In this document: positions 5,222 to 22,014 of the stretch, one piece after another
Layout of the letters: the number at the start of each line of letters is the position of its first letter
Numbering within the stretch: the stretch's first letter is position 1
Virus record (IMG/VR): IMGVR_UViG_3300031576_000232
Coordinates: 1 to 30,675 of that record
Direction: 5' to 3' (one strand)
DNA length: 30,675 nucleotides
From: a virus
Made by a program: the position numbers and the translations under genes
The notes under the pieces: model-generated
What the model was told of the DNA's origin: nothing
Seen by the model: the letters and a program-made list of their open reading frames with translations, nothing else
Database searches by the model: none

Positions 5222-5761
5222 TTAGGAGCGGCCAACGTCGATCTTGTAGTTATTCGCCACGTCCACCCCACCCGCGAACGCGCCGGAGGTGGTGGCGTTG
5301 GTCATAACCTCTGTGGTGGTTGCGAGCCCTTGCGTCCCTGACCGTGGCACCACGGCCGTCAACGTGACTACCCCGCCAACTACGGTCGCTCGAATCTGGC
5401 CTTGAATTGCTGCCGAGGTCGAGGCGTTGACGGACGCGGCGAGGTTGGCGGCGGTTTCGTTGAATGTGGGACCGATGGTGAATTCGTTGGCCAATGTCGC
5501 GGCAGTGCGTGCGGTGAAGGTGACGCCGTTAATTACACAGGTTTCAGCCGTGACGGGTTGCCCGGTGAATGTGATGGTGGAGGTGGGCTGAGTCCCGCCG
5601 ATGTTCACCGTCGATTTCACGCCCTTGCCTTCGTTTAAGCCCTCGAGCAGTTGCCCGATCCGCCCGATAACGAAACGGGGGTCGAGCTTTGCCGGTTTCA
5701 AGTTGTCCAACAAGTCTTGGTTGGACATCGCCACGTCGCAAACGATCATCAAAAGACCCAT
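5222..5761 (-). CDS. Putative minor virion protein with beta-rich domain
   Basis: A 179-residue protein. A short helical N-terminus (SNQDLLDNLKPAKLDPRFVI) precedes a beta-rich domain (CVINGVTFTARTAATLANEF, then ETAANLAASVNAS and VVGGVVTLTAVVP), a pattern found in several phage structural proteins and echoed inside the nozzle. The ATG at 5761 has a strong AAGGAGG five bases upstream. It follows the major capsid gene after a 125-bp spacer with a large hairpin, so it may be a head decoration or neck protein. The exact role is not shown. Confidence 0.7.
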   Translation of the reverse strand: MGLLMIVCDVAMSNQDLLDNLKPAKLDPRFVIGRIGQLLEGLNEGKGVKSTVNIGGTQPTSTITFTGQPVTAETCVINGVTFTARTAATLANEFTIGPTFNETAANLAASVNASTSAAIQGQIRATVVGGVVTLTAVVPRSGTQGLATTTEVMTNATTSGAFAGGVDVANNYKIDVGRS

Positions 5762-5779
5762 GTGGTCCTCCTTGTTTTA

Positions 5780-5829
5780 TAAGACCGTCCGCCCGGGGGG
5801 CTTTTAACCCCCCAGGCGAACCTGTCTTA
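5780..5829 (-). terminator. GC-rich hairpin between capsid gene and next gene
   Basis: A ten-base arm at 5791-5800 pairs with 5808-5817 around a CTTTTAA loop, with six G:C pairs at its core and one C/A mismatch. Flanking TAAGAC (5780-5785) and GTCTTA (5824-5829) can extend the stem. No U-run follows on the leftward transcript, so it is better read as a partial terminator, processing site or 3' stabiliser of capsid mRNA than as a strong terminator. The spacer holds no gene that I see. Confidence 0.55.
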
Positions 5830-5886
5830 CTCCTCCTTGACCCGAGTGTTACCCCTCAAGTTCAACAACGGCCTCGCGGTTTACGC

Positions 5887-7167
5887 TTAGCCATTGACGA
5901 TAGCCGTCACGAGGACCGATCGGGCGGGGGTTTCGATGAAGACCGCCTGGTCCGTGTAGAGCCGGAGTTCATACCCCGCGTTCCCCGTGAGTTCGAGGAA
6001 AATGTCGCCGGGACGGCCCGGACGCTGGAACGTGATGTCGGTCGCGCCCAAACGCATGATCCGCTTCAAGGGGAGGACGAAGGCGTCCCCTTCCTTGATG
6101 AAGATGTGTGGGACCAGCGTCACTTTGCCCGATTGGCTGTAGAACTCAACCGCTTCCTGACCGTTCTGCGATTTCGCTGGGGTGTAGTTGGACCCGTATC
6201 GGCGGAGCGCGGCTTGGTCGGTGGCGATGTTGCCCCAGGCCTTAGGGTTGAGGAAGACTGTGACGTCCTCAGAAAGGCCACGGTTGGAACCTTCCGCGAT
6301 GGCGTCGATGATCTTGCCAAAGGTCAGAGCTGCTGAACCAGACGAGTACGTGCTGCCCTTCCACAAGGTGTACGTGGCCGCACTGATGTTGAACAACGTG
6401 CCAGCGTTGACAAGGATTTTCTTAATCCCCGCCATTTCCTGGAACACCCCCGCCGCATTCGCGCCGAGGAAGAAGACGGTGGCGAGGTCTGGGTTAGCGT
6501 TGACGTATGTGTCGAGGGCTGTGATGTCAGCCGCGATCCCAGACACGACGAACTGGCGGTTCACCAAGTCCACGGAGTCGATGTTGAGGGCCGCGGTGGT
6601 GTTGATCTTGGTGGAGAGGTTTGACTGAAAAACGTCAATCTGCGCCGTTTCCAGTCCCGCCCAAATCCCGGCGGCCCACTCTTTGAGAGTAATGGTGAGG
6701 CGGGTGTGTGTGGTATCGATGTTGGCGCGGGCGGACAATGCGGCGATGCCAACTTGACCGTAGAAGGACTGAATTTCCAGTCGCTTCGCCATGCTGTCCA
6801 TCATGTTGTCGACCACCAGTTTCGTGGTCTCCACGAACGCCTTTTTGCCGTTGGACGCACGGTAGGCGGCGTCGTAGCTGATGGCGGATCGCAAGACAAT
6901 CTGCGAGCCGACAATCTGTGCGTCCTTCATGGCCATGGGGATTTGTGTGTTGAGAGCGAAAGCCCCGGCGCCTGCGGCGGCGTAGGTAAAGCCGTGCTCG
7001 TAGCTGAGGATGACTGGTTGGTGGTAAAAGTTGCCGTTTTCCTTGTCCTTCTGTGTGAAGGGCACGATCTTGGTGAACTTAGATGCACTTGGCACCAGGC
7101 TGACGATGTCGTCGCCATAGACCTCTTTGAAGAGGCCGTTGAGTTGTGCGATGTCTGTAAAAGGCAT
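5887..7167 (-). CDS. Major capsid protein
   Basis: A 426-residue protein placed directly after the scaffold gene, the usual place for the capsid protein. It starts MPFTDIAQLNGLFKEVYGDD and contains long helical and beta segments without membrane regions. The C-terminal part (FQRPGRPGDIFLELTGNAGY, then LYTDQAVFIETPARSVLV) is typical of HK97-fold capsid proteins of podoviruses. The ATG at 7167 has AGGAGG eight bases upstream, fitting high expression. No protease gene is seen, so processing by a phage protease is unlikely. The fold is inferred from position and length. Confidence 0.85.
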   Translation of the reverse strand: MPFTDIAQLNGLFKEVYGDDIVSLVPSASKFTKIVPFTQKDKENGNFYHQPVILSYEHGFTYAAAGAGAFALNTQIPMAMKDAQIVGSQIVLRSAISYDAAYRASNGKKAFVETTKLVVDNMMDSMAKRLEIQSFYGQVGIAALSARANIDTTHTRLTITLKEWAAGIWAGLETAQIDVFQSNLSTKINTTAALNIDSVDLVNRQFVVSGIAADITALDTYVNANPDLATVFFLGANAAGVFQEMAGIKKILVNAGTLFNISAATYTLWKGSTYSSGSAALTFGKIIDAIAEGSNRGLSEDVTVFLNPKAWGNIATDQAALRRYGSNYTPAKSQNGQEAVEFYSQSGKVTLVPHIFIKEGDAFVLPLKRIMRLGATDITFQRPGRPGDIFLELTGNAGYELRLYTDQAVFIETPARSVLVTAIVNG

Positions 7168-8315: not shown

Positions 8316-10358
8316 CTATCGTTGGCCAGTGAGGGGGTTGACTGGCATGTTCGGCATTTTGACTTCTGCCGCTTTTTCTAAAGTCGGGCCGGCGTTGTCG
8401 AGGGCCGTGGTGATATGGGCCGCCGGACCGCCAGGCGCGCCACCGTCCGCGGTTGAAGTGAGAGGTGGCAAGCCTGGGATGGCCGGCGGGATCGGCTGTT
8501 CGCCGTTCAGCATAAGGATGGCAGGGTCGGAGGTCCGCATTAAGTTAATGTGATCCTGGATGTGGGTCAAGGCGGCGTTGACGATCATGGGGTTGGCGCG
8601 TGAAGCCGGGGAAGAAAGGACGACGCCGTGTTCGATGATGTGGAGTTTGTGGGAGTCGGTGATGAGAGCTGGGACGGGCTCCCCCTTAGACAGTTCTTCG
8701 TTCTCGGAACGGATCAGAAGTAGTTGAGACTGATCGCCTTCCACCAACGGCTCAAGGTTCCCCGTCATGAGGACTTGGATGTATTCCTGGGGAGTCTTGA
8801 GGAGCCCTTGCCCGAGGAGTGATTCAGCGATCTGCAATTTCCCGGCGGTGGTGCGAGAAAGAGGGTTGCCCATTTCGACTTGGACGCGGGAGATGTTGGT
8901 GAGGTCGGCGGAGGAAAATTCTTGCATGTAGCCCGCGTTGGATTTCCCTGAAATGGCGATCATGCGCTTGGTCTTGGCGAAGGAGGCGAGGATTTTGATG
9001 ATCCCGGTTCCAACGTCTTCGAGGAGGCGGTTGTAGGATTGCTGGAAATTCGAATTAAACTGGATGGCTTGGGAGGCAACGAGGGCGAGGGCTGAGCCGG
9101 ACTTCAAACTCGAATCGGGGTTGCCGCGCGAAACGGAGTTGACGCCAGAAATGATCTCCATGACCTTCTCGACCTTTTCCAAGAAAGCGAATATCTCTTG
9201 TGGCGTTGAGAGAAGTTGGAGGACTTCGGGCTTGGTCGGGGATGAAATGCTGTTGAGTCCGCCGCCGAGGTCGGTGACGGAAATCCCGCCGCCCGGTTGG
9301 GTCCAGATGTTTTGGACGCCGAAATTGCCTTGGTTGGTGAGGATGGTGGAATAAAGTTTGTCGACGATCTCTTGGATCGGGAGGAGGTCGAAGGCGATGG
9401 AGTAGCCGGAGGTTGAGCCGGAAACGTCTTCGGGGGCGAGGCGATAGACGGGCATGCCGTCATACGGGAGTGGAGAGTCGATAGTCACGATGTCGGACCC
9501 AATGCACTCTACGATCCGCCCTTCAGGAACCACCGGGGTCTTTCGGTGAACAAGCGTGTCCACGTAAATCAGGTCGCCATAGCTGGCGAAGTTGCCGATG
9601 GTGGAACGGTCGATGATGTCGTTGGCGTCGAGGCGTTGGGCGATGATCTTGTCGGCGTACTGGGGGTACTTGGCGGCCATGGAGTATTTGTTTTTGAGGG
9701 CGCGGGCGATGTGCCAGTCGCTTTGACCAGCGTCTTCCAAAGCGTAGTCGTAGGCGAGGGAGAGGGGGCCGTGGACAGAAATTGTGATGTCGCCTTCTTT
9801 GATCTTCGCTCCATTCAGACCCACCGCGTAATCGTTTCCGAGCGCGGTGTCCCACCCGAGGATGATGTAGGCCTGGCCAAAGATCAGTCCGATCTCGCCC
9901 GCCTTTTTCAAAAAGACTTCGACCTTCTTCTCCCGGTTGTAATAATCGAGCACACCGCGTGAGATTTTGGTTTGGGCCTGGCTTTTGTAGTCGGTGTTGG
10001 TGGCAACTGGGTTGAAGGTGGGGCGTTGGTTGGCGGCCCCGGAAAGGATGTGGAGGAGGATGTTCCGGAAATGGTTGACCGAGACGTTGAGAAATTCGTC
10101 TTGGAGCCCCGACGCCCAAAGGCGTCCGCCCTTGATAATCCCCCGATAATAATACTCGAAACTCCGACGGTAGAGGTAAAGGCGTCCCGTCTCTTTCAGC
10201 CACTTCACGTAATCGTCGATTTTGTCTTGGACCTGCTTGGCAATTTCGTTCCTTGGTTTCCTGGCAAAATATGGCGCGAGATTCTCGTGGACTGGGATGG
10301 GGTGGGGCATGGGGGCCGCGTTGGATTTCGTAGGAGGATACAGAGTCAGGCTTGGCAT
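8316..10358 (-). CDS. Portal protein
   Basis: A 680-residue protein forming the portal ring at the packaging vertex. It shows portal-like N-terminal blocks: VQDKIDDYVKWLKETGRLYL, FLNVSVNHFRNILLHILSGA, then NQRPTFNPVATNTDYKS, with a helical C-terminal half and a Pro/Gly-rich tail. Size and position directly after large terminase fit podovirus portals of about 650-750 residues. I start at ATG 10358 (MPSLTLYPP). A TTG at 10379 would add seven residues, and neither site has a convincing ribosome-binding sequence. Confidence 0.87.
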   Translation of the reverse strand: MPSLTLYPPTKSNAAPMPHPIPVHENLAPYFARKPRNEIAKQVQDKIDDYVKWLKETGRLYLYRRSFEYYYRGIIKGGRLWASGLQDEFLNVSVNHFRNILLHILSGAANQRPTFNPVATNTDYKSQAQTKISRGVLDYYNREKKVEVFLKKAGEIGLIFGQAYIILGWDTALGNDYAVGLNGAKIKEGDITISVHGPLSLAYDYALEDAGQSDWHIARALKNKYSMAAKYPQYADKIIAQRLDANDIIDRSTIGNFASYGDLIYVDTLVHRKTPVVPEGRIVECIGSDIVTIDSPLPYDGMPVYRLAPEDVSGSTSGYSIAFDLLPIQEIVDKLYSTILTNQGNFGVQNIWTQPGGGISVTDLGGGLNSISSPTKPEVLQLLSTPQEIFAFLEKVEKVMEIISGVNSVSRGNPDSSLKSGSALALVASQAIQFNSNFQQSYNRLLEDVGTGIIKILASFAKTKRMIAISGKSNAGYMQEFSSADLTNISRVQVEMGNPLSRTTAGKLQIAESLLGQGLLKTPQEYIQVLMTGNLEPLVEGDQSQLLLIRSENEELSKGEPVPALITDSHKLHIIEHGVVLSSPASRANPMIVNAALTHIQDHINLMRTSDPAILMLNGEQPIPPAIPGLPPLTSTADGGAPGGPAAHITTALDNAGPTLEKAAEVKMPNMPVNPLTGQR

Positions 10359-10391: not shown

Positions 10392-11885
10392 TCAATGTCG
10401 GCGTCCCAAAATCTTTTTCAACTGGATCATCTCATGGCTCTTTTTCTGGTCGGGGATGAAGTGCGTGGATTCTCTCACGTGGAGGCTGGGTGGGATTGGG
10501 TTGGTGATTTGATCGAGGGCGCGTGCCCCGTAAATCAAGGCTGCGAGGCCGTCGAAATGGCCGTAGACTGAGGATCTGTCGAATTCTTTTCGATTCTCAC
10601 GCCAAATTCCAAACTTCAGGCACCCGATCACGTGCTTGCACCGTGGATGAACCATCACCCGCCCGGCGGCAACGAGGAGACGGAGGTGGTTGACCATCGC
10701 TTCGAGGTTGTCTTTTGTGGTGGGGCGAAAGACGATCCCGTGGAGGGCCCCCATGTCTTGGAGCATGAGTGGATTGTCGCTGTCGGCCACGCGGACGTAG
10801 ACGTTGGCTTTTGGGCCCCAAAGGCGTTCCTCGGCCTTTTTGTTTTCCTCCGCCACCTTTGCCGTCGTCATCGCCGGGCCGTTCATTACGATCTCGTCCT
10901 CGATGAAAAGCGTGGCGCGTTTGAAATCGTAGTAGGCGAGGAGGTTTACGTTGAAGTCGCGGACGCCCAAATCCATCATGTTGTATTTGTGATAGAACTC
11001 GAAAAATTGGTCGTGCGGAGCCTCTTGAATGTAACTGTCGCGCCACTCGGGGATCACGGCGTAGTTTTCGTCAACGACGAACTGACAGAGGTATTCGCGT
11101 TTCCAAGTTGTCGAGTTTTCCCCGCCGGCTTCGTCTTGAAACATTTTGACCAGCAACGTCTCGTAGCCGGACTGGTGGATATTGAATTCGCAGTAGTTCC
11201 CTGACGACTGGGCGGCCTGTGCCATCTCGGTAAAATCGTGCGCCGGCGTCCGCGGTGGAGTTGAACACATCAGAAGGTGGCCACCGGTGGTGAGGAGTTG
11301 GGGAAGGAGGATGTCGTTGACGACATATTTCAGGTCGTCGATGGAACCAGATTCGTCAAGGATAATTCGATGGGCGATGTTCCCCCGGAGGCTTTCAGCG
11401 TGCCCGGCGTTACACCCAGAGACGTGGCACTCGGAGCCGTTGTGTTTGAATCGGTAGCACCCGTCAATTGTGTCCCACACGGGGCGGATGTCGTTCGGGG
11501 CGTCCTGAATGATATCGCGGATCAATGGGCGGGTAATGTTCCGCATGGCCTTTTGGGTTGGGGCACCGAGACGGATGACCCGGTTGGGGCCCTTAAGGGC
11601 TTCCTCAATCGCGATCAAGCACGCCAGGTAAGACTTCCCGAGACGCCGGGCGGAGTTGACGACGTATTTGAGAGATGTGGCGGCCTGAATGCTCCGGTAC
11701 ATGAGGAGCTGGACCGGGCGGAGTTTGTAAGTGAGGTTCCCGCGCCGCCACCGCTCTCTGATCTCGACCGCCGACCCTTCCTCCGCCTTCAACTTGTCGA
11801 TGGCAAGTTGAATCCCATGAAGGATTGCCTGGTTGGGCCTGGCGACGGCTTTGAAAGGGAGGCGGGCGGGGCTACCCTTCCCCAC
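10392..11885 (-). CDS. terL: Terminase large subunit
   Basis: A 497-residue packaging ATPase/nuclease from a GTG at 11885. Walker A is SARRLGKS (about residues 78-85) and Walker B is RIILDE (about 173-178), followed by a coupling-type motif LLMCSTPP. The C-terminal nuclease half shows acidic positions in MMDLGVRDFNVNLLAYYDF and in the late GHFDGLAALIYG motif. The GTG overlaps the upstream small membrane gene by 14 bp. A TTG at 11927 is the alternative and has no ribosome site. It should translocate genomic DNA through the portal with the small subunit encoded three genes upstream. Confidence 0.93.
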   Translation of the reverse strand: MGKGSPARLPFKAVARPNQAILHGIQLAIDKLKAEEGSAVEIRERWRRGNLTYKLRPVQLLMYRSIQAATSLKYVVNSARRLGKSYLACLIAIEEALKGPNRVIRLGAPTQKAMRNITRPLIRDIIQDAPNDIRPVWDTIDGCYRFKHNGSECHVSGCNAGHAESLRGNIAHRIILDESGSIDDLKYVVNDILLPQLLTTGGHLLMCSTPPRTPAHDFTEMAQAAQSSGNYCEFNIHQSGYETLLVKMFQDEAGGENSTTWKREYLCQFVVDENYAVIPEWRDSYIQEAPHDQFFEFYHKYNMMDLGVRDFNVNLLAYYDFKRATLFIEDEIVMNGPAMTTAKVAEENKKAEERLWGPKANVYVRVADSDNPLMLQDMGALHGIVFRPTTKDNLEAMVNHLRLLVAAGRVMVHPRCKHVIGCLKFGIWRENRKEFDRSSVYGHFDGLAALIYGARALDQITNPIPPSLHVRESTHFIPDQKKSHEMIQLKKILGRRH

Positions 11886-15249: not shown

Positions 15250-15420
15250 CTAGGGATCCAGCCTGAGCGTCGCCATGGACAGTTTCAGCTTTTCGTATTC
15301 AACGTCGCACGGCGCGATGGCTTTGCGGGGGTTGTAGGGAGCGGGGGAGAGTTTTTCAACCGGGATGGGCAAGAGGCGCATTTTGTTCACTGGGAGGACC
15401 TCGCCTGCCTGTTGAACCAT
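15250..15420 (-). pseudogene. Truncated ParB-like N-terminal fragment
   Basis: A 56-codon frame from ATG 15420 (alternatives GTG 15390, ATG 15381) to TAG at 15252-15250. It encodes RLLPIPVEKLSPAPYNPRKA, then DVEYEKLKLSMATL, which matches the opening of phage ParB-like proteins (PAPYNPRK followed by a helix with EYEKLK). It then stops where the next strand and GHxR motif should follow. It overlaps the upstream gene by 65 bp. I read it as the stump of a once longer ParB-domain gene, whose remainder was lost when the nuclease/methyltransferase region was joined. A retained short peptide is possible. Confidence 0.65.
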
Positions 15421-15673
15421 TCCCTGCCCGCTTCGTAGATGGAACGGTATGTCTTTTTTGCCAGTTGATACTCTCCACGCGCCCCATCGTTAACGAGCGT
15501 GACGTCCCCTGCACTTGTCGCAACCACCCCTTAAGGATGTTCCGAAGAAATGGGGCTTCCCACGAACTGATTTCAGGCATCATCCGCGTAGCGTGCGCCT
15601 TGATCTCCGCGTACGTCGCCGGCTCCAAATAAACCGTCATACTGAGCCGGCCCTTGTTGATTTTAACCGCCAC
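15356..15673 (-). CDS. Ribbon-helix-helix-like small DNA-binding protein (candidate regulator)
   Basis: A 105-residue protein from GTG 15673 with GGAGG six bases upstream. The N-terminus (KINKGRLSMTVYLEPATYAE, then IKAHATRM) has the strand-then-helix pattern of ribbon-helix-helix proteins. The C-terminal 45 residues are basic and look disordered. It follows a promoter-like sequence at 15840-15868 that carries a version of a motif also found over two early promoters, so autoregulation and early-gene control are plausible. The fold and target are inference. Confidence 0.6.
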   Translation of the reverse strand: MAVKINKGRLSMTVYLEPATYAEIKAHATRMMPEISSWEAPFLRNILKGWLRQVQGTSRSLTMGRVESINWQKRHTVPSTKRAGNGSTGRRGPPSEQNAPLAHPG

Positions 15674-15829
15674 TGCGGACCTCCAAGACTTTCAAACAAC
15701 GTGAACAAAAATAGAATGTCTGCGTGCAACAAACAAACGGCTTCACGCCAGACCGCAGCTCCGAGATCACGACTGAGTGCCATCCAAAAAAACAAAGGAG
15801 CGCGTGGATGGACCTGACCCAAGACAATC

Positions 15830-15868
15830 TCATATAATTATCCTACCGTATCATTTTTTCAGCGTCAA
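15830..15868 (-). promoter_or_regulatory. Leftward promoter with operator-like motif
   Basis: On the minus strand TTGACG (15868-15863) and TAGGAT (15845-15840) are separated by 17 bases, a sigma70-like promoter facing the ribbon-helix-helix gene. The plus strand at 15830-15853 reads TCATATAAT, five bases, then TACCGTATCA. These are the two halves of the motif seen at 19403-19420, here in the opposite orientation and with an insertion. It overlaps the stop of the 33-residue membrane gene. Confidence 0.5.
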
Positions 15869-15952
15869 GCCAAGGAGGAAAAAAAGCATAGTCCACCCCC
15901 CGATGATGTTTAAGATTAGCCACGCCATACAAGCGATGTCTCTTAAGTCCAT
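15851..15952 (-). CDS. 33-residue single-pass membrane microprotein
   Basis: ATG at 15952, TGA at 15853-15851, with GGAGG five bases upstream of the start. The product begins MDLRDIACMAW and is hydrophobic from about residue 7 to 30 (LILNIIGGWTMLFFLLGLT), ending LKK. A charged N-terminus, one long membrane helix and a basic end fit a small inner-membrane protein, for example a lysis modulator or superinfection-exclusion peptide. No family is recognised. It follows a strong hairpin at 15974-16020, which may separate it from upstream transcription. Confidence 0.65.
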   Translation of the reverse strand: MDLRDIACMAWLILNIIGGWTMLFFLLGLTLKK

Positions 15953-15973
15953 TTCTTCCTCCGAGTCATCGAA

Positions 15974-16020
15974 GCAAATCAGCCGCCCGCCCCCCGCTCG
16001 GCGGGGGCGGCTGATTTTGC
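15974..16020. terminator. Strong GC-rich hairpin, terminator-like on either strand
   Basis: GCAAATCAGCCGCC (15974-15987) faces GGCGGCTGATTTTGC (16006-16020), with further C/G-rich pairing between them. Short T runs follow on both strands (TTTTG on plus, TTTG on minus). It lies just upstream of the membrane microprotein on the leftward transcript and may be a bidirectional terminator or attenuator. Confidence 0.55.
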
Positions 16021-16178
16021 CATTGTAAGCCCGAAAAGAAATTTTCTTTTTCTCGGTCGTACAGACCTCAGGTTATTTTGAGGGAACGCCTCAAAAAAAA
16101 ATCAACAACCAGACCGTCTCCTACGGTCAACGGACCCACTGGAAGGGCGCGCCGGGGTTATGGTGATGTTCCCCGCTT

Positions 16179-16254
16179 GAGGAGCCAAAATTTCGGCGGG
16201 TTTGAATCCGCCTATCAGGTTATGCCTTGGGGCATTTCGGGCCCGACGCTCCCC
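16179..16254 (-). ncRNA. Possible multi-branched structured RNA
   Basis: A seven-pair closing stem (16248-16254 with 16179-16185, one G:U) encloses a palindromic CGGGCCCG, an ATGCC/GGCAT hairpin (16222-16226 with 16231-16235) and a GGCGG/CCGCC hairpin (16195-16199 with 16208-16212). The layout resembles a cloverleaf, but loop sizes and the spacing to the acceptor stem exclude a normal tRNA. It could be part of a leader RNA or a small regulatory RNA. Pairing alone is the evidence. Confidence 0.3.
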
Positions 16255-16511
16255 TGAAAAACTCTCCTCTCGATTCCTACAAAACGAAGCCCACCGCGGA
16301 CATGGATTGTCCAACCATGGCGCATTTGACCAAGGAGATGAGCCTTGTGGACGTGCTTGGTCGTGGTGGGCGGTTTGTGGGGCGGCTCAGGGTTCTACCC
16401 GGGCGGCGCGAAGCGTCTTGGACGCCCCAAAATAAGACGGCCCACATCCCTTGCGGGGCGTGGACCGAATGCACGATGAATCCCAGGGGCCTGGTTTTGG
16501 CGTGCGGAAAT

Positions 16512-16554
16512 AGTATAGCAGAATTTGCGCCCCTTGATTCATGATTGGATTATA
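16512..16554 (-). promoter_or_regulatory. Candidate leftward promoter boxes for the accessory/late block
   Basis: On the minus strand an extended -10 (TGCTATACT, 16520-16512) and a separate perfect TATAAT (16554-16549) lie about 40 bases apart. Neither has a good -35 at 17 bases, so an activator or extended -10 contact would be needed. They are the only promoter-like boxes I found between the early block and the virion genes, apart from the one at 15840-15868. Confidence 0.35.
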
Positions 16555-16663
16555 GTTTCTCAGAATCCAAAAAGCCAGCTTTTTCTTAAAACAGTTTCCA
16601 CTCCCAGTTCTTTAAAGCCCTCTACGAAGCGTTCGTGTGGAAGCTCATGGCACTGGGGCCCTG

Positions 16664-16698
16664 GGGGAGGACCGCGCCGGCGGGGAGGACCGCGCCGG
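16664..16698. repeat. GC-rich tandem repeat, copy A
   Basis: Two near-complete 18-bp units that begin GGGGAGGACCGCGCCGG. The first 29 bases (16664-16692) are identical to 21985-22013. The copy lies just 3' of the last early gene (stop at 16713 on the leftward strand) and next to a GGGGCG/CGCCCC hairpin (16697-16711). It may act as a transcript-end or boundary element. Confidence 0.85.
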
Positions 16699-16712
16699 GG
16701 CGGCGCGCCCCG

Positions 16713-17033
16713 TCAGAGCTTAGCCTCAGACTGTTGCTCGTAGCCGTCCCAGTCCTCCAAATACTCACCCGCTGCCGCGCTCTTGTAGTCCGCCTTTTTG
16801 AGATCACCATTTAAGAGAGGGAGTTCCATCTGCAATACCATCGGTTGCGCGGAGGATGCGATTTGCGTGGCTTTTGCCAGGATTGTCGCTAGATGGGTCC
16901 GACGACGCTTCTCCTCTAGGGCTCTGTAATATCTGTAATAGGTGTAGCTCATGCCAAGCACCAAATCACCTTCAAGATTGATGCCTTTTTGTTTGATCCA
17001 TGCCCATGGAGAATCACCACGCCACCACACCAT
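16713..17033 (-). CDS. Hypothetical protein at the end of the early block
   Basis: A 106-residue protein from ATG 17033 (MVWWRGDSPWAWIKQKGINL). A Tyr-rich segment (MSYTYYRYYRALEEKRRRTH) and helices follow, with an acidic end (GEYLEDWDGYEQQSEAKL). No membrane segment or known motif is visible. The ribosome site is weak. It lies 27 bp after the Zn-binding gene and is the last gene before the control region. Confidence 0.6.
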   Translation of the reverse strand: MVWWRGDSPWAWIKQKGINLEGDLVLGMSYTYYRYYRALEEKRRRTHLATILAKATQIASSAQPMVLQMELPLLNGDLKKADYKSAAAGEYLEDWDGYEQQSEAKL

Positions 17034-17060
17034 CTTTCATCCACAAGTCACCTCAGCGGT

Positions 17061-17276
17061 TCACTTTTTATTCGAAGCGGAAAACTTGTTCGCCTGGGGG
17101 CATGTGGCGAAATGGGAAACCATGAAATTGTCCCCCACCCTTTCCGCCTCCGCCTGTCCTCCTTGGATGAACGGATAGACGCGGAAGACGGGAGGCCTCG
17201 GGTCAAGCGGGATTTTCTTCCCGTCCTTTGTCCCTGCCCACACGATCTCCTTCCCGCACCCCCGGCACGCGCTCAT
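17061..17276 (-). CDS. Small zinc-ribbon-like protein
   Basis: A 71-residue protein starting MSACRGCGKEIVWAGTKDGK, with a CxxC pair at residues 4-7 and a later SHFATCP segment that could complete a metal site. This layout is common in small phage early proteins of unknown role. The start overlaps the upstream stop in ATGA, so translation is coupled to the coiled-coil gene of the recombination cassette. Nucleic-acid binding is possible but not shown. Confidence 0.7.
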   Translation of the reverse strand: MSACRGCGKEIVWAGTKDGKKIPLDPRPPVFRVYPFIQGGQAEAERVGDNFMVSHFATCPQANKFSASNKK

Positions 17277-17932
17277 CGCCCCGCCACAACGATCTTTTGC
17301 GGGAAGAACCGAACGCCAGGCACCTTCGCGTCTGCTTTTAACGCCCTGGCCACCGCCGCGAGCTTTTTTTCGTCGATCACCAGATACTCCCTGGGGACCG
17401 CCAGCGGGTCGATAACTTCAGCCTTCCAGTCCTCCCGGTATTTGATCCGATCAACTTCCTGAACCTTCGGCAGTTCCACCGGTGGGACGTAGACAGGGGT
17501 TTGTCGGATCGCTTCGGCCTCTTTCCCGTTCCCGAGGAACTCGTTTTCCGCGGCCAGGGCTTCCCGGTCTTTTTTTGCCTGGGCTTCGAGGGTCTCCCGG
17601 ATCGCCAGCTCCCGATCGGCCTTAAGCTGCTCCAACTTGTCGTGGAAAGCCGCCATGTCGCGCTTGAGCGTGGATTCGGCGGCCTCCATCGGCTTTAACA
17701 TATCCCCGCGCTTTTTGGTGAGTTCCTCCCAAACCGCCCTGGCCTTTTTGACGGGATCATCCCAATAGGCAGTGATCCGCTTCATGGCGTCTTTGATCGA
17801 CACCAGGATCGTCCCGGCTTCGTTGTAGGTCCTGGCGTCGGTCACGGTCAACGCCCCCGCCCTCTCCACCACCGTCAAAGCCAACGTCTCGGCCTGGGCG
17901 GTGTCATCGAGTTGTGCGCTCAGTTCAGTCAT
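17273..17932 (-). CDS. Coiled-coil protein associated with the recombination cassette
   Basis: A 219-residue protein from ATG 17932, chosen because AAGGAGG lies six bases upstream; an in-frame start 24 bases earlier lacks this. The middle is a long charged helix (KRITAYWDDPVKKARAVWEE through AQAKKDREALAAENEFLGNG). The C-terminal domain carries WKAEVIDPLAVPREYLVI and KVPGVRFFPQKIVV, a pattern seen in many phage proteins encoded beside annealing proteins and exonucleases. It overlaps the exonuclease gene by 8 bp. A structural or regulatory partner in recombination is likely; the biochemical role is unknown. Confidence 0.75.
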   Translation of the reverse strand: MTELSAQLDDTAQAETLALTVVERAGALTVTDARTYNEAGTILVSIKDAMKRITAYWDDPVKKARAVWEELTKKRGDMLKPMEAAESTLKRDMAAFHDKLEQLKADRELAIRETLEAQAKKDREALAAENEFLGNGKEAEAIRQTPVYVPPVELPKVQEVDRIKYREDWKAEVIDPLAVPREYLVIDEKKLAAVARALKADAKVPGVRFFPQKIVVAGR

Positions 17933-18572
17933 CGTTTTCCTCCTTGAATCGTGCAATCGTCAAAGCGGCCATCCAAAGGGCTTCCCCGCCGGCGTGCCTG
18001 CTCAGGCAGTAGGTTCCGTTCGCCCGGAGGAGCAGGGACCAACGCGCGCGGGCATAGCCTTCCATCGCTTCCTTTATCGGCTTGAAATCTTCGTGCCCAA
18101 GAGCCGACTCAAGGCCCATCCCATAGCCGGCCAGTTGGGCGGCGGTGGTTTTTGGCACCGACCCGGTTTTGATGTCGAGGGGCCCTGCGGTGTTGTGCGG
18201 GAAGGCCACCACGCGGTCAATCGTCCCCGCATAGCCAAGCTCGTCGTGGTGGAAGGGTTGTTCGATGAGGAGGATGGTGGGGTTGGCTTCGGACTTGAAT
18301 TTTTCGTAGGCCGCCAGGTAGCCAGCCCAAGACGAATCAACGCTCTCGCGGTCCAGACGCCCCTCATCGAGAAACTGTGTCGCCAGGTGGACCGCCCGGC
18401 CACGGCTCATGGCCGCTTGCATGGTCGGTAAATCCAGGCGGACGCCGAGGCCGGCGCGATCAAGCACCTGGGTCACGGACGGCACCAACCTCCCGTCCCT
18501 GCCCACCCGGTAATCGTGGTGGACAGGATCGAAGGTCAGTAAGGGCCAGGGCTTACGCCAAGGCAGTGTCAA
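17925..18572 (-). CDS. PD-(D/E)XK exonuclease (RecB/Cas4-like)
   Basis: A 215-residue nuclease. Residues near the start (FDPVHHDYRVGRDGRLVPSV, then TQVLDRAG) and the core (YAGTIDRVVAF, PLDIKTGSVPKTTAAQLAGY) show the Asp...Asp-x-Lys...Gln pattern of RecB-family exonucleases. I use TTG 18572, which has GGTGGAG four bases upstream and overlaps the annealing-protein gene by 20 bp; no ATG fits. The pairing with the annealing protein suggests a two-component double-strand-break or replication recombination system. Confidence 0.82.
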   Translation of the reverse strand: MTLPWRKPWPLLTFDPVHHDYRVGRDGRLVPSVTQVLDRAGLGVRLDLPTMQAAMSRGRAVHLATQFLDEGRLDRESVDSSWAGYLAAYEKFKSEANPTILLIEQPFHHDELGYAGTIDRVVAFPHNTAGPLDIKTGSVPKTTAAQLAGYGMGLESALGHEDFKPIKEAMEGYARARWSLLLRANGTYCLSRHAGGEALWMAALTIARFKEENDD

Positions 18573-19386
18573 GGTTCTCCACCGCCACCAGTTCCCTGAT
18601 CCCCATGACCGAAACGCGGACGGCGTTTTTGGCTTCGATAGCGTTCTTGATTTTGACCGCCAGGGCCCGGTCGGTAGTCTGAAGGCCATAGCCGTTGACT
18701 GGGAAAGCCGTGTACGTCACCTTCCCCGTCCCGGGATCTTTTTCAGCGATCACCCGCGAGAACACTTTTTCAGACACGCTGGGTTCGTCTTCGTGAGCAT
18801 CGTTCAGCGGTTCAGGGGCCGGAGGTTCCGCCGGGCTAACCGCCGTCGGCATCGGGGCTTCCGTTAACCGCCTCGCGCCGGCCACGGTTTCGATCTCCGT
18901 TTCGTCCATCATCCCAAGCCCGCACAACGACAGGACGGCTCGCCGTTTAGCTTTCGTGATCGCCTTCATGTAGGAGTTGGCGAGGTCGTTCCCTTTGAGG
19001 TTCAAGATCGGGACCGCCCCCATCTCATCCGTCGCCCGCCCGTCGCCCGTCACCGCCCGGACCATCACGATCCGGAGATCGCTTTCGGTCACCTGGCTTA
19101 AGACTTCAGTTTTGATTTTGTGGTTGGCCGCCAGTTGGTCGGTGGCCACCTTCGTGGCGTAGAGGGTCGTTTTCCCTTGGAGCGTCATATACTGGAACGG
19201 CGCGGTCCTCGGGTCCAACCCCGCCGCCTGGCACCTGGCTTTGTAATAAAGCACCTTCTGCACAGGCGTCAACCTCGCCATGTCCCCCGACATCACCAAC
19301 GCCTCAAGGGTTTGAGCGTCGAGGTTGATGAGGTCGGACGCGGGAGCGGCGGCGTTCGGTGTTTCTGCTTTTGCTATTGCGTTCAT
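18553..19386 (-). CDS. Putative single-strand annealing protein
   Basis: A 277-residue protein. The conserved block includes YYKARCQAAGLDPRTAPFQY, GKTTLYATKVATDQLAANHK and GNDLANSYMKAITKAKRRAV, then LSLCGLGMMDETE (about residues 47-165), typical of a widespread phage family encoded beside exonucleases. It resembles Rad52/Erf/RecT-like annealing proteins in layout, but I cannot assign the exact family. A Pro-rich linker leads to a small C-terminal domain (FPVNGYGLQTTDRALAVKIK). The ATG at 19386 has AGGAGG four bases upstream and a TATAAT box about 25 bases before the start. Confidence 0.72.
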   Translation of the reverse strand: MNAIAKAETPNAAAPASDLINLDAQTLEALVMSGDMARLTPVQKVLYYKARCQAAGLDPRTAPFQYMTLQGKTTLYATKVATDQLAANHKIKTEVLSQVTESDLRIVMVRAVTGDGRATDEMGAVPILNLKGNDLANSYMKAITKAKRRAVLSLCGLGMMDETEIETVAGARRLTEAPMPTAVSPAEPPAPEPLNDAHEDEPSVSEKVFSRVIAEKDPGTGKVTYTAFPVNGYGLQTTDRALAVKIKNAIEAKNAVRVSVMGIRELVAVENLDTALA

Positions 19387-19402
19387 GTTTCCTCCTGGTT
19401 TG

Positions 19403-19420
19403 TGATACGGTATTATATCA
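19403..19420 (-). promoter_or_regulatory. Operator-like motif over a -10 box upstream of the annealing-protein gene
   Basis: On the minus strand the 18-base TGATATAATACCGTATCA has a TGATA/TATCA dyad and contains a perfect TATAAT (19417-19412). The 14-base core ATATAATACCGTAT differs by one base from the motif at 21938-21951. The -35 region is poor. It begins at the TGA stop of the preceding gene, so it can start an internal transcript and be controlled by a regulator. Confidence 0.55.
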
Positions 19421-19657
19421 TTTCTCGGTGTTGAGTTTTTTTACCAGCGCGGCTTCCTCCACCCGCACCGCCCTTTTTCTCTCCACCCTCACCTGCGCCC
19501 CCAACCTCGTCGCCTCTGCCCGGATGGCTTCGAGCATGACACCGATGTCGGTAAACGCCTCCCACCCGGCGATGGTTTTAAGAATCCAACCGTTGCTGAT
19601 CGTCTTGATCTTGATTTCCGAGAGAGACGCCTCCCGTTGTTGGTCGGGGCCGTTCAT
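19418..19657 (-). CDS. Hypothetical early protein
   Basis: A 79-residue protein from ATG 19657, which overlaps the upstream stop in ATGA. It begins MNGPDQQREASLSEIKIKTI, then NGWILKTIAGWEAFTDIGVM and a basic helical end (RVERKRAVRVEEAALVKKLN). No known motif. The tight overlap and its end just before an operator-like motif place it in the early transcript. Confidence 0.68.
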   Translation of the reverse strand: MNGPDQQREASLSEIKIKTISNGWILKTIAGWEAFTDIGVMLEAIRAEATRLGAQVRVERKRAVRVEEAALVKKLNTEK

Positions 19658-20043
19658 ACTGCCGCCCCATCTGGTTCGACGCGGAAAGAGAACGGATCGT
19701 CCACGTCTCCGCTCACGGCCACGTCAATGGACACCGCAGGGAACTTCCTGACGATCTCTTTGAAGATCGGCGTGGGTGGGTTCCAAGCGGTGTTGAACTC
19801 AAGCACCAACCGACGGCTGTCGGGCTTGAGCTGGTAAACCGTGATTTCGTGGGCGTTCCATTTGGTCCCCCAATTTTTACACGACCAAGAGTGCCAGTCG
19901 AGCGAACGGATGGACTTCGGCATGGGCTTGATCTTTTTGAAGTCCACCCGCTGTTCTTTCCCGCCGTCGATCCACTTCTTGATCCGCTTCAGGTCTTCCA
20001 ACCGTCCGAAAATGCCGACGTGGTTGGTCACATTATTTGGCAC
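19654..20043 (-). CDS. DUF1281 (Api92-like) ferredoxin-fold protein
   Basis: A 129-residue protein from GTG 20043, with AAAGGAGG six bases upstream. It shows the family pattern MPNNVTNHVGIFGR at the start, a PMPKSI segment, the hallmark CKNWGTKWNA near residues 55-64 and FNTAWNPPTPIFKEI near 84-98. The family occurs on phages and plasmids, and its biochemical role is unknown. Here it sits in the early block upstream of the recombination genes, preceded by two hairpins and a run of nine G on the leftward transcript. Confidence 0.82.
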   Translation of the reverse strand: MPNNVTNHVGIFGRLEDLKRIKKWIDGGKEQRVDFKKIKPMPKSIRSLDWHSWSCKNWGTKWNAHEITVYQLKPDSRRLVLEFNTAWNPPTPIFKEIVRKFPAVSIDVAVSGDVDDPFSFRVEPDGAAV

Positions 20044-20066
20044 TTGCGTCCTCCTTTCCCCCCCCC

Positions 20067-20116
20067 ATCGACTTCGGACGATGGCTGTGGTTTAACCGGT
20101 CGGTGGTCTGACCGGC
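20067..20116 (-). promoter_or_regulatory. Two tandem hairpins before the DUF1281 gene
   Basis: CCGGTC/GACCGG (20097-20116) and CCATCG/CGATGG (20067-20086) each form a perfect six-base stem with an eight-base loop, inside the 81-bp gap after the DUF932 stop. A run of nine G (20066-20058 on the minus strand) and the ribosome site follow. They could slow transcription, stabilise the upstream mRNA end or set relative expression. No U-run follows, so they are not classical terminators. Confidence 0.5.
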
Positions 20117-20124
20117 CCGTCACC

Positions 20125-21183
20125 TTAGTTGCGGTTGTCTCGCGCCGCGTCCATCAGACCCTTCCACCACCCGCCGTCTTGGGAGCAAACGTCCCCCCCG
20201 AGGCGTTCAAGTTCCGTGGCCTGGTCGTAGTCGTGAACGTCCTGGCTAACTCGCGTGATGGCGTTGCCGAGGCCGTATTGGCTGAAGTCCCCGCCCTTGA
20301 TGAGGTAGTTGAGGACGCCGCCGCCCACGTCTGCCGTGAGGGCGTGTTCCCGCTTCACCACCTCCACCACCTTCACCACCTCGGCGTCGATGATCCGGGC
20401 GGCGGCGTCCTTCATTTTCTTGACGATCCGCCCGAACACGACTTCCGAGAACGTCCCCTCAACCACGTCCCTAATTTTCATCCAGAACGCCTTGTCGTCC
20501 GCCTGGCGGGTGTCGTCACGGAAGAACTGCTCCGCGATATCCCCGTTCCCGGTGCTCCGCCCGATGTGGGCCTGGCGCATGGCCAGGTCGTTGATGATCG
20601 CCCCGTTTCGGCACACCAGGCGATAGACCAACGGCTCCACCTTCACCGATCCCATCCCCACCTCCGAATTCGAGATGACGATGCCCGCCTGAACCACGTC
20701 CCCCACGCCGATCTCCGCCGTGATCCGGCTCGTGACGACTTTGATGTAGAGGCGTTTTTGGGTGAGTTCAGCACTCTCGACCGTGAACCCAGGCTTGGCG
20801 ATGAGCGGCATGACCGCCTCCGCCATGTCCATATGGTCCAGGGGGCGGTAACGGTCGGACAGGAACGCCCGGGCCGTGCCGTCAAGGGTGCGGATCAACC
20901 GCTTGTCGTTGTCCTCCCCGAACCAGTGGTTCACGTTCTCCGCGAGCAGTTTGTAGGACGACACCTTCATGCGGTCGTAGTATTTCTGCGGGATTCCAAT
21001 CCGGGAAGCAATCTGCTCCTCCGCGATGGTCGTCATGGGGAAACACCCATGCCCGTTGATCCTGAGTTGACAGTTTAACGGCTCCATCACCAACTCCTTC
21101 GACGGGGCGATGAAGTCCCGCTTGGTGGCCTGTTGGCGTTGAATTTCCTCCGCCAGTTCGACGAGTGTCATGCCTGATTTCAT
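20125..21183 (-). CDS. DUF932 family phage/plasmid-like protein
   Basis: A 352-residue protein from ATG 21183, with AGGAG seven bases upstream. Family-like blocks include FIAPSKELVMEPLNCQLRIN, FPMTTIAEEQIASRIGIPQK, ARAFLSDRYRPLDHMDMAEA and VYRLVCRNGAIIND, in the usual DUF932 order and length. Such proteins are frequent on phages and plasmids, often near recombination genes; their activity is unknown. It is the longest early gene. The open frame reaches 21306, but the extra 41 codons are Pro/Gly-rich and lack a good start. Confidence 0.83.
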   Translation of the reverse strand: MKSGMTLVELAEEIQRQQATKRDFIAPSKELVMEPLNCQLRINGHGCFPMTTIAEEQIASRIGIPQKYYDRMKVSSYKLLAENVNHWFGEDNDKRLIRTLDGTARAFLSDRYRPLDHMDMAEAVMPLIAKPGFTVESAELTQKRLYIKVVTSRITAEIGVGDVVQAGIVISNSEVGMGSVKVEPLVYRLVCRNGAIINDLAMRQAHIGRSTGNGDIAEQFFRDDTRQADDKAFWMKIRDVVEGTFSEVVFGRIVKKMKDAAARIIDAEVVKVVEVVKREHALTADVGGGVLNYLIKGGDFSQYGLGNAITRVSQDVHDYDQATELERLGGDVCSQDGGWWKGLMDAARDNRN

Positions 21184-21313
21184 TTTGTTGCTCCTTTTCG
21201 CGGTCCGGGGTATCGCTCCCGTTCCGGGTGCCCCATCGGGGGCCTTTCGATTTCCTGGACTTGGGACCAGGATGTCGTTTACAGCGGGTTGCCCCGCCGC
21301 CCTCACGATTTCT

Positions 21314-21412
21314 TCATGAAGCCCGGCTGAATCTCCTGTCTGGCAGTTCGTGGATGGTCCCCATCATCCGGTCGAAGTAGCTCAGCCCCGGGATGTCTTT
21401 TTCTTCGCTCAA
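21314..21412 (-). CDS. 32-residue microprotein with TTG start
   Basis: TTG at 21412 overlaps the preceding stop (TTGA), and AAGGAGG lies seven bases upstream. It encodes LSEEKDIPGLSYFDRMMGTI followed by a short basic end, stopping at 21316-21314. The overlap and ribosome site argue for real translation; no family is recognised. The 130 bp between it and the DUF932 start hold only an open extension of the DUF932 frame. Confidence 0.5.
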   Translation of the reverse strand: MSEEKDIPGLSYFDRMMGTIHELPDRRFSRAS

Positions 21413-21669
21413 ATACACTCCTCCTTGCGGTCGTAGTCATCTTCAAAAGGTTCAAGCTCCGCGGGCTCAAACTCCATGCACCCGCAATCCTCGCCGAAAC
21501 AATGCCCGCCCGCCACGGTGCAGGTGACGCCGTATTTGTTGGTGAAGGGCCCGGTGTGGGGTCGGTAGTTGTGCCCGCACGAGCAGAGGTCGATGGGCTT
21601 GGGGTCGATCTCGATGGTGTAGGGCGACGCGGTTTTCCAGGCGTCGTAGCCGGGGATGGATTCAAGCAT
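21409..21669 (-). CDS. Cys-rich small early protein
   Basis: An 86-residue protein from ATG 21669 with GGAGG five bases upstream; the start overlaps the upstream gene by 8 bp. It contains CSCGHNYRPHTG (residues 29-40) and CTVAGGHCFGEDCGCMEF, six or more Cys with His, fitting one or two zinc sites, and a very acidic tail (EPAELEPFEDDYDRKEE). A nucleic-acid or protein-binding early factor is plausible. The longer open frame upstream of 21669 has no support. Confidence 0.72.
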   Translation of the reverse strand: MLESIPGYDAWKTASPYTIEIDPKPIDLCSCGHNYRPHTGPFTNKYGVTCTVAGGHCFGEDCGCMEFEPAELEPFEDDYDRKEECI

Positions 21670-21877
21670 GGTGGGCCTCCAATCGCACACAAGGCATGAC
21701 TGAAAGGGCAATGTAGTGCTCGGGGGCGGGGAGGTGAAGGAACTCGACGCGAATATCGTAGCCGCGCGCTTCGGCGGCTTGGGCAACTTTCTTGAGGTTG
21801 GGGGAGAGGTGTTTGACCGAGGCGAGGAACTGCGTCGGGTTGAGGGTGAGCGTGACCGTATTTCTCGTGGCGACCAT
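21662..21877 (-). CDS. First gene of the early block, hypothetical
   Basis: A 71-residue protein from ATG 21877 with AAAAGGAGG eight bases upstream. It starts MVATRNTVTLTLNPTQFLAS and contains a helix (LSPNLKKVAQAAEARGYDIR) and a strand (VEFLHLPAPEHYIALSV). Compact alpha/beta pattern, no Cys cluster, no membrane segment. It is the promoter-proximal gene, about 60 bases from the -10 at 21935-21940, so it is likely made first after infection. Host take-over is a guess from position only. Confidence 0.7.
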   Translation of the reverse strand: MVATRNTVTLTLNPTQFLASVKHLSPNLKKVAQAAEARGYDIRVEFLHLPAPEHYIALSVMPCVRLEAHHA

Positions 21878-21934
21878 TTGGCGCGCCTCCTTTTGGTAGA
21901 GCCGATCTGGCTACTACCTTCTTCCTGCGATATT

Positions 21935-21963
21935 ATTATACAGTATTATATGAGAAAAGTAAA
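21935..21963 (-). promoter_or_regulatory. Early leftward promoter with operator-like motif
   Basis: On the minus strand TTTACT (21963-21958) and TATAAT (21940-21935) are 17 bases apart, close to the sigma70 consensus. The motif ATATAATACTGTAT (21951-21938) lies across the spacer and the -10 and differs by one base from the copy upstream of the annealing-protein gene. This is the best promoter in the window and drives the early block by host polymerase. Confidence 0.68.
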
Positions 21964-21984: not shown

Positions 21985-22014
21985 GGGGAGGACCGCGCCG
22001 GCGGGGAGGACCGG
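21985..22014. repeat. GC-rich tandem repeat, copy B
   Basis: One full 18-bp unit and a partial second; 29 bases (21985-22013) are identical to 16664-16692. It lies 14 bp past the stop of the last late gene and 21 bp before the early -35 box on the leftward strand, the same setting (end of one block, before the next promoters) as copy A. Confidence 0.85.

Follow-up and report, generated by a model that had tools for sequence, protein, structure and literature searches.

An AT-rich inverted repeat lies over three promoter regions (sites A, B and C) of a small uncultivated circular phage, and this motif is genuine and exceeds chance expectation, as does its partial copy at A, where the spacing differs. 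On balance, we take the three sites to be operators of one dimeric DNA-binding repressor that would recognise the half-site TNATAYRR; in the best reading of the sequences this repressor would act at B and C and, with less certainty, also at A. The window, meaning the whole 30,675-nucleotide stretch of DNA analysed, consists of a 30,548 bp unit of 57% G+C closed by a 127-bp end repeat. All of its recognisable genes are oriented leftward and, in the part that was scanned, include those for a terminase, portal, methyltransferase, nuclease, PD-(D/E)XK exonuclease, DUF932 protein and amidase. Over the 25 kb compared, no DNA-level similarity was detected among 50,697 phage genomes, and relatives in IMG/VR have merely one to three proteins in common with this phage, at 30-65% identity.

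Site B (19403-19420) and site C (21936-21953) each consist of an imperfect inverted repeat of 18 bp, which on the plus strand reads TGATACGG-TA-TTATATCA and TTATACAG-TA-TTATATGA, respectively. In both, the half-sites stand 10 bp apart with a spacer of 2, and the two dyads are identical at 15/18 positions. Site A (15830-15853) is a stretched inverted repeat of 24 bp, not 18, TCATATAA-TTATCCTA-CCGTATCA, with a spacer of 8 and half-sites 16 bp apart, 6 bp further than in B and C; none of the three dyads is assigned to a strand. Aligned as plus-strand sequences in a common frame, A, B and C yield the half-site consensus TNATAYRR. Since the half-sites of A are 16 bp apart instead of 10, an identical dimer could not occupy A in an identical way. 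The strings quoted in the preliminary description were found where it had placed them: ATATAATACTGTAT at 21951-21938 and ATATAATACCGTAT at 19418-19405 on the minus strand, and TCATATAAT-TATCC-TACCGTATCA at 15830-15853 on the plus strand.

Sigma-70 hexamers or an extended -10 element are present at all three sites. Promoter C (21935-21963, minus strand; TTTACT-17-TATAAT, 10/12) is the highest-scoring sigma-70 promoter in the window; TATAAT occurs twice at site C, once within the promoter spacer (21950-21945) and once at 21940-21935, and the good -35 element belongs to the second of these boxes. Promoter B (19412-19420, minus strand) has the extended -10 element TGATATAAT (TGnTATAAT), whose TGA doubles as the stop codon of the gene at 19418-19657, and a plus-strand TATTAT overlaps the minus-strand TATAAT, placing the predicted starts 18 bp apart. 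At site A, a leftward promoter (15840-15868, minus strand; TTGACG-17-TAGGAT, 9/12) points towards the gene at 15356-15673, about 160 nt from its start, and a rightward promoter (15809-15838, plus strand; TGGACC-18-TATAAT, 10/12) points towards a 1-kb noncoding stretch; the opposed -10 boxes overlap, with predicted starts about 12 bp apart. The earlier claim of three leftward promoters holds for B and C; A is not a third such promoter bearing a TATAAT, as its TATAAT points right and its leftward -10 box is TAGGAT. Site A is possibly one bidirectional region, and A and B, with their near-symmetric -10 boxes, are both candidate bidirectional promoters.

Directly below promoter B, and preceded by AGGAGG, lies the gene of a probable RecT-like single-strand annealing protein (18553-19386, minus strand). 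The product has no PHROG or Pfam match, and we presume this identity from the pairing with the adjacent exonuclease and from the usual make-up of such operons. That PD-(D/E)XK exonuclease gene (17925-18689, minus strand), the true start of which is probably internal, is downstream in the same operon. First below promoter C is a 71-aa ORF with AAGGAGG (21662-21877, minus strand), and the DUF932 gene (20125-21183, minus strand) belongs to the same operon.

Several tests separate the motif from chance, although, with sites that had already been picked in the preliminary description, all of them are partly post hoc. Allowing at most 2 mismatches, the 14-mer ATATAATACYGTAT matches at B and C only, with 0.02 matches expected and 0/100 shuffles reaching 2. 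The shorter TACYGTAT has three copies in the circle of 30,548 bp, each in noncoding DNA and at most 5 bp after a same-strand TATAAT. Three copies arose in 0/3000 shuffles of noncoding DNA, yet the TACYGTAT pattern alone is weak, since a comparable 3-or-more/0 count is reached by 17 degenerate 8-mers. When the local flanks were shuffled with TATAAT held fixed, matches as good as that of B with C occurred in 3/2000 shuffles, as compared to 48/2000 for A with C and 80/2000 for A with B. For the best of these tests, we derived the half-site rule T[CGT]ATA[CT][AG][AG] from B and C only, and searched for inverted pairs with a spacer of 0-13: genome-wide, this B- and C-derived rule identifies A, B and C only, each on a promoter. 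Any such pair appeared in 3/1000 whole-genome binned shuffles, and 22/20000 shuffles of the A region that kept its TATAAT in place contained one. Many equal-scoring sites inside genes, which the preliminary description had named as evidence against its proposal, were not found, as there are no in-gene copies. Across IMG/VR, the exact 15-mer TGATACGGTATTATA has 58 matches, mostly in AT-rich phages, against a rough chance estimate of about 80.

A repressor dimer at B or C would meet half-sites one helical turn apart on the same DNA face, and the 18-bp operator would span the -10 box and start region, such that, with the dimer bound, RNA polymerase would be kept off the promoters of the RecT-like/exonuclease and DUF932 operons. 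At A, where one and a half turns separate the half-sites across two overlapping divergent -10 boxes, binding would be weaker, involving two units or else a bent complex, and the regulator could tune its own expression if it is encoded by the leftward ORF. In favour of operators we count that B and C drive recombination or early-type genes, that promoter C scores highest and that the consensus -10 box of B is extended by TG. Against them we count the wrong spacing at A, the near-symmetric -10 box that makes up some of what the sites share (ATATAATA), the use of the TGA in A and B in stop codons of ORFs ending there, the absence of the motif from relatives and the lack of a recognised repressor gene in the window. 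The proposal of one regulator for three transcripts gains from the inverted-repeat test, as a dyad shared by three promoters points to a single regulator, but it has to be recast as two leftward transcripts plus the A region. If correct, one repressor sets both the recombination and the DUF932 operons, which would give a view of the regulatory logic of otherwise unannotated small environmental phages.

Much of the same pattern could arise from strong host sigma-70 promoters whose near-symmetric -10 boxes (TATAATA/TATTATA) fire both ways, flanked by chance with CYGTAT and serving no dedicated regulator, an explanation that we regard as possible, though less probable than operators. Start sites of bidirectional promoters are most commonly 18 bp apart (PMC10268837), the very distance predicted for the opposed boxes at B, and the -10 boxes at A are likewise opposed and overlapping; moreover, the A-B and A-C matches taken alone are reached by the 80 and 48 of 2000 shuffles given above, and the motif is not conserved. 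However, with TATAAT fixed, the B-C match (3/2000) and the A pair (22/20000) stay rare, and nothing in a -10 box requires CYGTATNA.

In a special case of the operator reading, which we consider rather unlikely, the repressor would be the 105-residue product of the minus-strand ORF at 15356-15673 (GTG start, GGAGG), a ribbon-helix-helix protein acting at B and C as well as at its own promoter (A). This gene has a ribosome-binding site and is located directly below leftward promoter A, the AlphaFold2 model of its product has a strand-helix-helix order, and a dimer of dimers, the arrangement of Arc/MetJ-type repressors, would fit half-sites spaced 10 bp apart as they are at B and C. That model has a pLDDT of 51, however, and gave no Foldseek match at E below 4; the protein has no Pfam, PHROG or PDB-sequence match, even at loose limits, and no convincing homologue in 50,697 phages. 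Furthermore, its last ~50 residues resemble non-gene sequence and overlap another ORF, and the spacing at A is wrong. We regard the ribbon-helix-helix fold as possible, with low confidence. Among the proteins searched, which do not comprise every ORF, no helix-turn-helix repressor was recognised, and a protein of the host, or a small phage protein that escaped recognition, is an equally likely regulator. The 56-aa ORF at 15250-15420 (minus strand) resembles the start of a ParB-like protein and ends early; it is possibly a truncated or frameshifted gene.

Host LexA (SOS) boxes are very improbable: the TATACAGTA half in C resembles the gammaproteobacterial SOS box, and B and C each differ from CTGT-N8-ACAG at two positions, but two-mismatch sites occur at shuffle level (95 vs 93 expected), A has none within two mismatches, and the LexA box was rejected with CTG-N10-CAG not beyond chance. 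A T7-like promoter, considered for TAATAC, was dropped as no single-subunit RNA polymerase was found among the proteins searched, which were not all of them.

The nearest relatives do not carry the motif, and scans of viral and genome contigs with the terminase and RecT-like proteins gained little or nothing. Upstream of homologous genes the motif was found in 0/79 RecT-like and 0/54 DUF932 cases, and across 50 related records it is absent, save for one one-mismatch site, TATAATAGTGTAT, in each of L093 and L094, two records that seem to represent one virus. Because operators drift fast, the absence speaks neither for nor against a shared operator; with no relative carrying the motif, conservation by footprinting lends it no support. 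In L138, L147, L160 and L084, 16-mers repeated within the locus (e.g. TATTTTCTTGTTGACA) stand upstream of RecT-like or DUF932 genes, and are possibly other shared operators.

The region at 15674-16712 spans about 1 kb without a convincing gene, and has strong hairpins at 15976-16017 and a minus-strand TATAAT at 16554; it is a possible structured RNA or replication origin. Over 601 nt it folds more stably than shuffles (z -5.2 on the plus strand, -3.2 on the minus strand), while in 300-nt windows its fold is not outstanding, and it matched no Rfam family and no homologue in phages, plasmids or relatives. At its left end is a 33-aa membrane-like ORF with GGAGG (15851-15952, minus strand). The sequence GGGGAGGACCGCGCCGG occurs in two tandem copies with an 18-bp period at 16664-16710, and as one copy with partial flanking copies at 21985-22013, where it precedes the box of promoter C by about 35 bp; exact copies exist nowhere else. 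The strongest fold relative to shuffles of any 300-nt window (z -6.1) lies elsewhere, at 5701-6000 (minus strand) over the gap at 5762-5886, and is probably a terminator or structured leader.

The transcript from promoter C carries a second set of candidate control elements, as its DUF932 gene is bracketed by two predicted Twister-P5 ribozymes (RF02684): one upstream (21255-21307, minus strand; 55.4 bits) and one beginning at the DUF932 stop codon (20067-20124, minus strand; 39.3 bits), both above the covariance-model gathering cut-off of 37.6 bits. In L004, the closest DUF932 relative (63% identity), a twister beginning at the same stop codon (11167-11228) has another stem sequence around the conserved core; it scores 34.7 bits, below the 37.6 cut-off, with E 7e-5 in a 2.7-kb search. 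A minus-strand leader hairpin before DUF932, CGGGAGCGATACCCCG then AAAAGGAG (21205-21221), is common to L004 (near 10044 and 9308), where the second copy precedes another gene.

Hammerheads lie beside DUF932 in six other phages, identified by Rfam or by eye. They are found just upstream of the gene in L112 (9916-9981, an Rfam match) and L081 (about 9906-9966; Rfam 34.2 bits, below the cut-off of 37), upstream in L068 (near 8427) and downstream in L067 (about 11283-11340), the last two below the family cut-off. Textbook cores were recognised by eye in L066 (near 9281 and 11083), one lying at the DUF932 stop codon and the other 720 nt upstream, as well as at the stop codon in L103 (near 7765), and no Rfam model scored these. 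A single-strand fold gives the L103 element the three-stem hammerhead shape, whereas the lowest-energy folds of the two L066 elements are not hammerhead-shaped. Across the 50 records, five of the six Rfam matches with a per-record E of at most 1e-6 fall within ~300 bp of DUF932 on the same strand, for which random placement gives roughly 2 in 10^10, assuming independent placement. We tentatively suggest, as a conjecture with less than even prospects, that the promoter C transcript is controlled twice, by the shared operator at its start and then by two twisters that would excise the DUF932 message, and that DUF932 is a preferred cargo of different self-cleaving ribozyme classes in many phages. 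The excised RNA would have 5'-hydroxyl and 2',3'-cyclic-phosphate ends, and might be ligatable into a circle. No paper in the literature searched names both DUF932 and a ribozyme, although the link may still have been reported. If it holds, two ribozyme classes beside the same phage gene in distant genomes would allow a single gene to be used to test why self-cleaving RNAs are present in phages, which is an open question.

A shared operator is ordinary phage gene control, here in a new phage. As in phage repressor operators of the Arc/Mnt, lambda and P22 type, the sites are short imperfect inverted repeats at few promoters and overlap the polymerase site; they differ in that no repressor gene is recognisable and one of the three has a 6-bp longer spacer. 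We know of no described half-site matching TNATAYRR. Bidirectional sigma-70 promoters with near-symmetric -10 elements (PMC10268837, PMC12825309) have opposed -10 boxes such as those at B (starts 18 bp apart) and A (~12), but leave the shared CYGTATNA flank unexplained. As for the predicted ribozymes, hammerheads flank genes in prophages, where they have been proposed to cut long transcripts into gene-length pieces, and which genes they flank varies from case to case (Perreault et al. 2011, PMC3088659). The promoter C transcript would similarly place self-cleaving RNAs on either side of a single gene in a phage operon, but here these are of the Twister-P5 class, and the same gene, DUF932, recurs with a twister or a hammerhead across distant phages.
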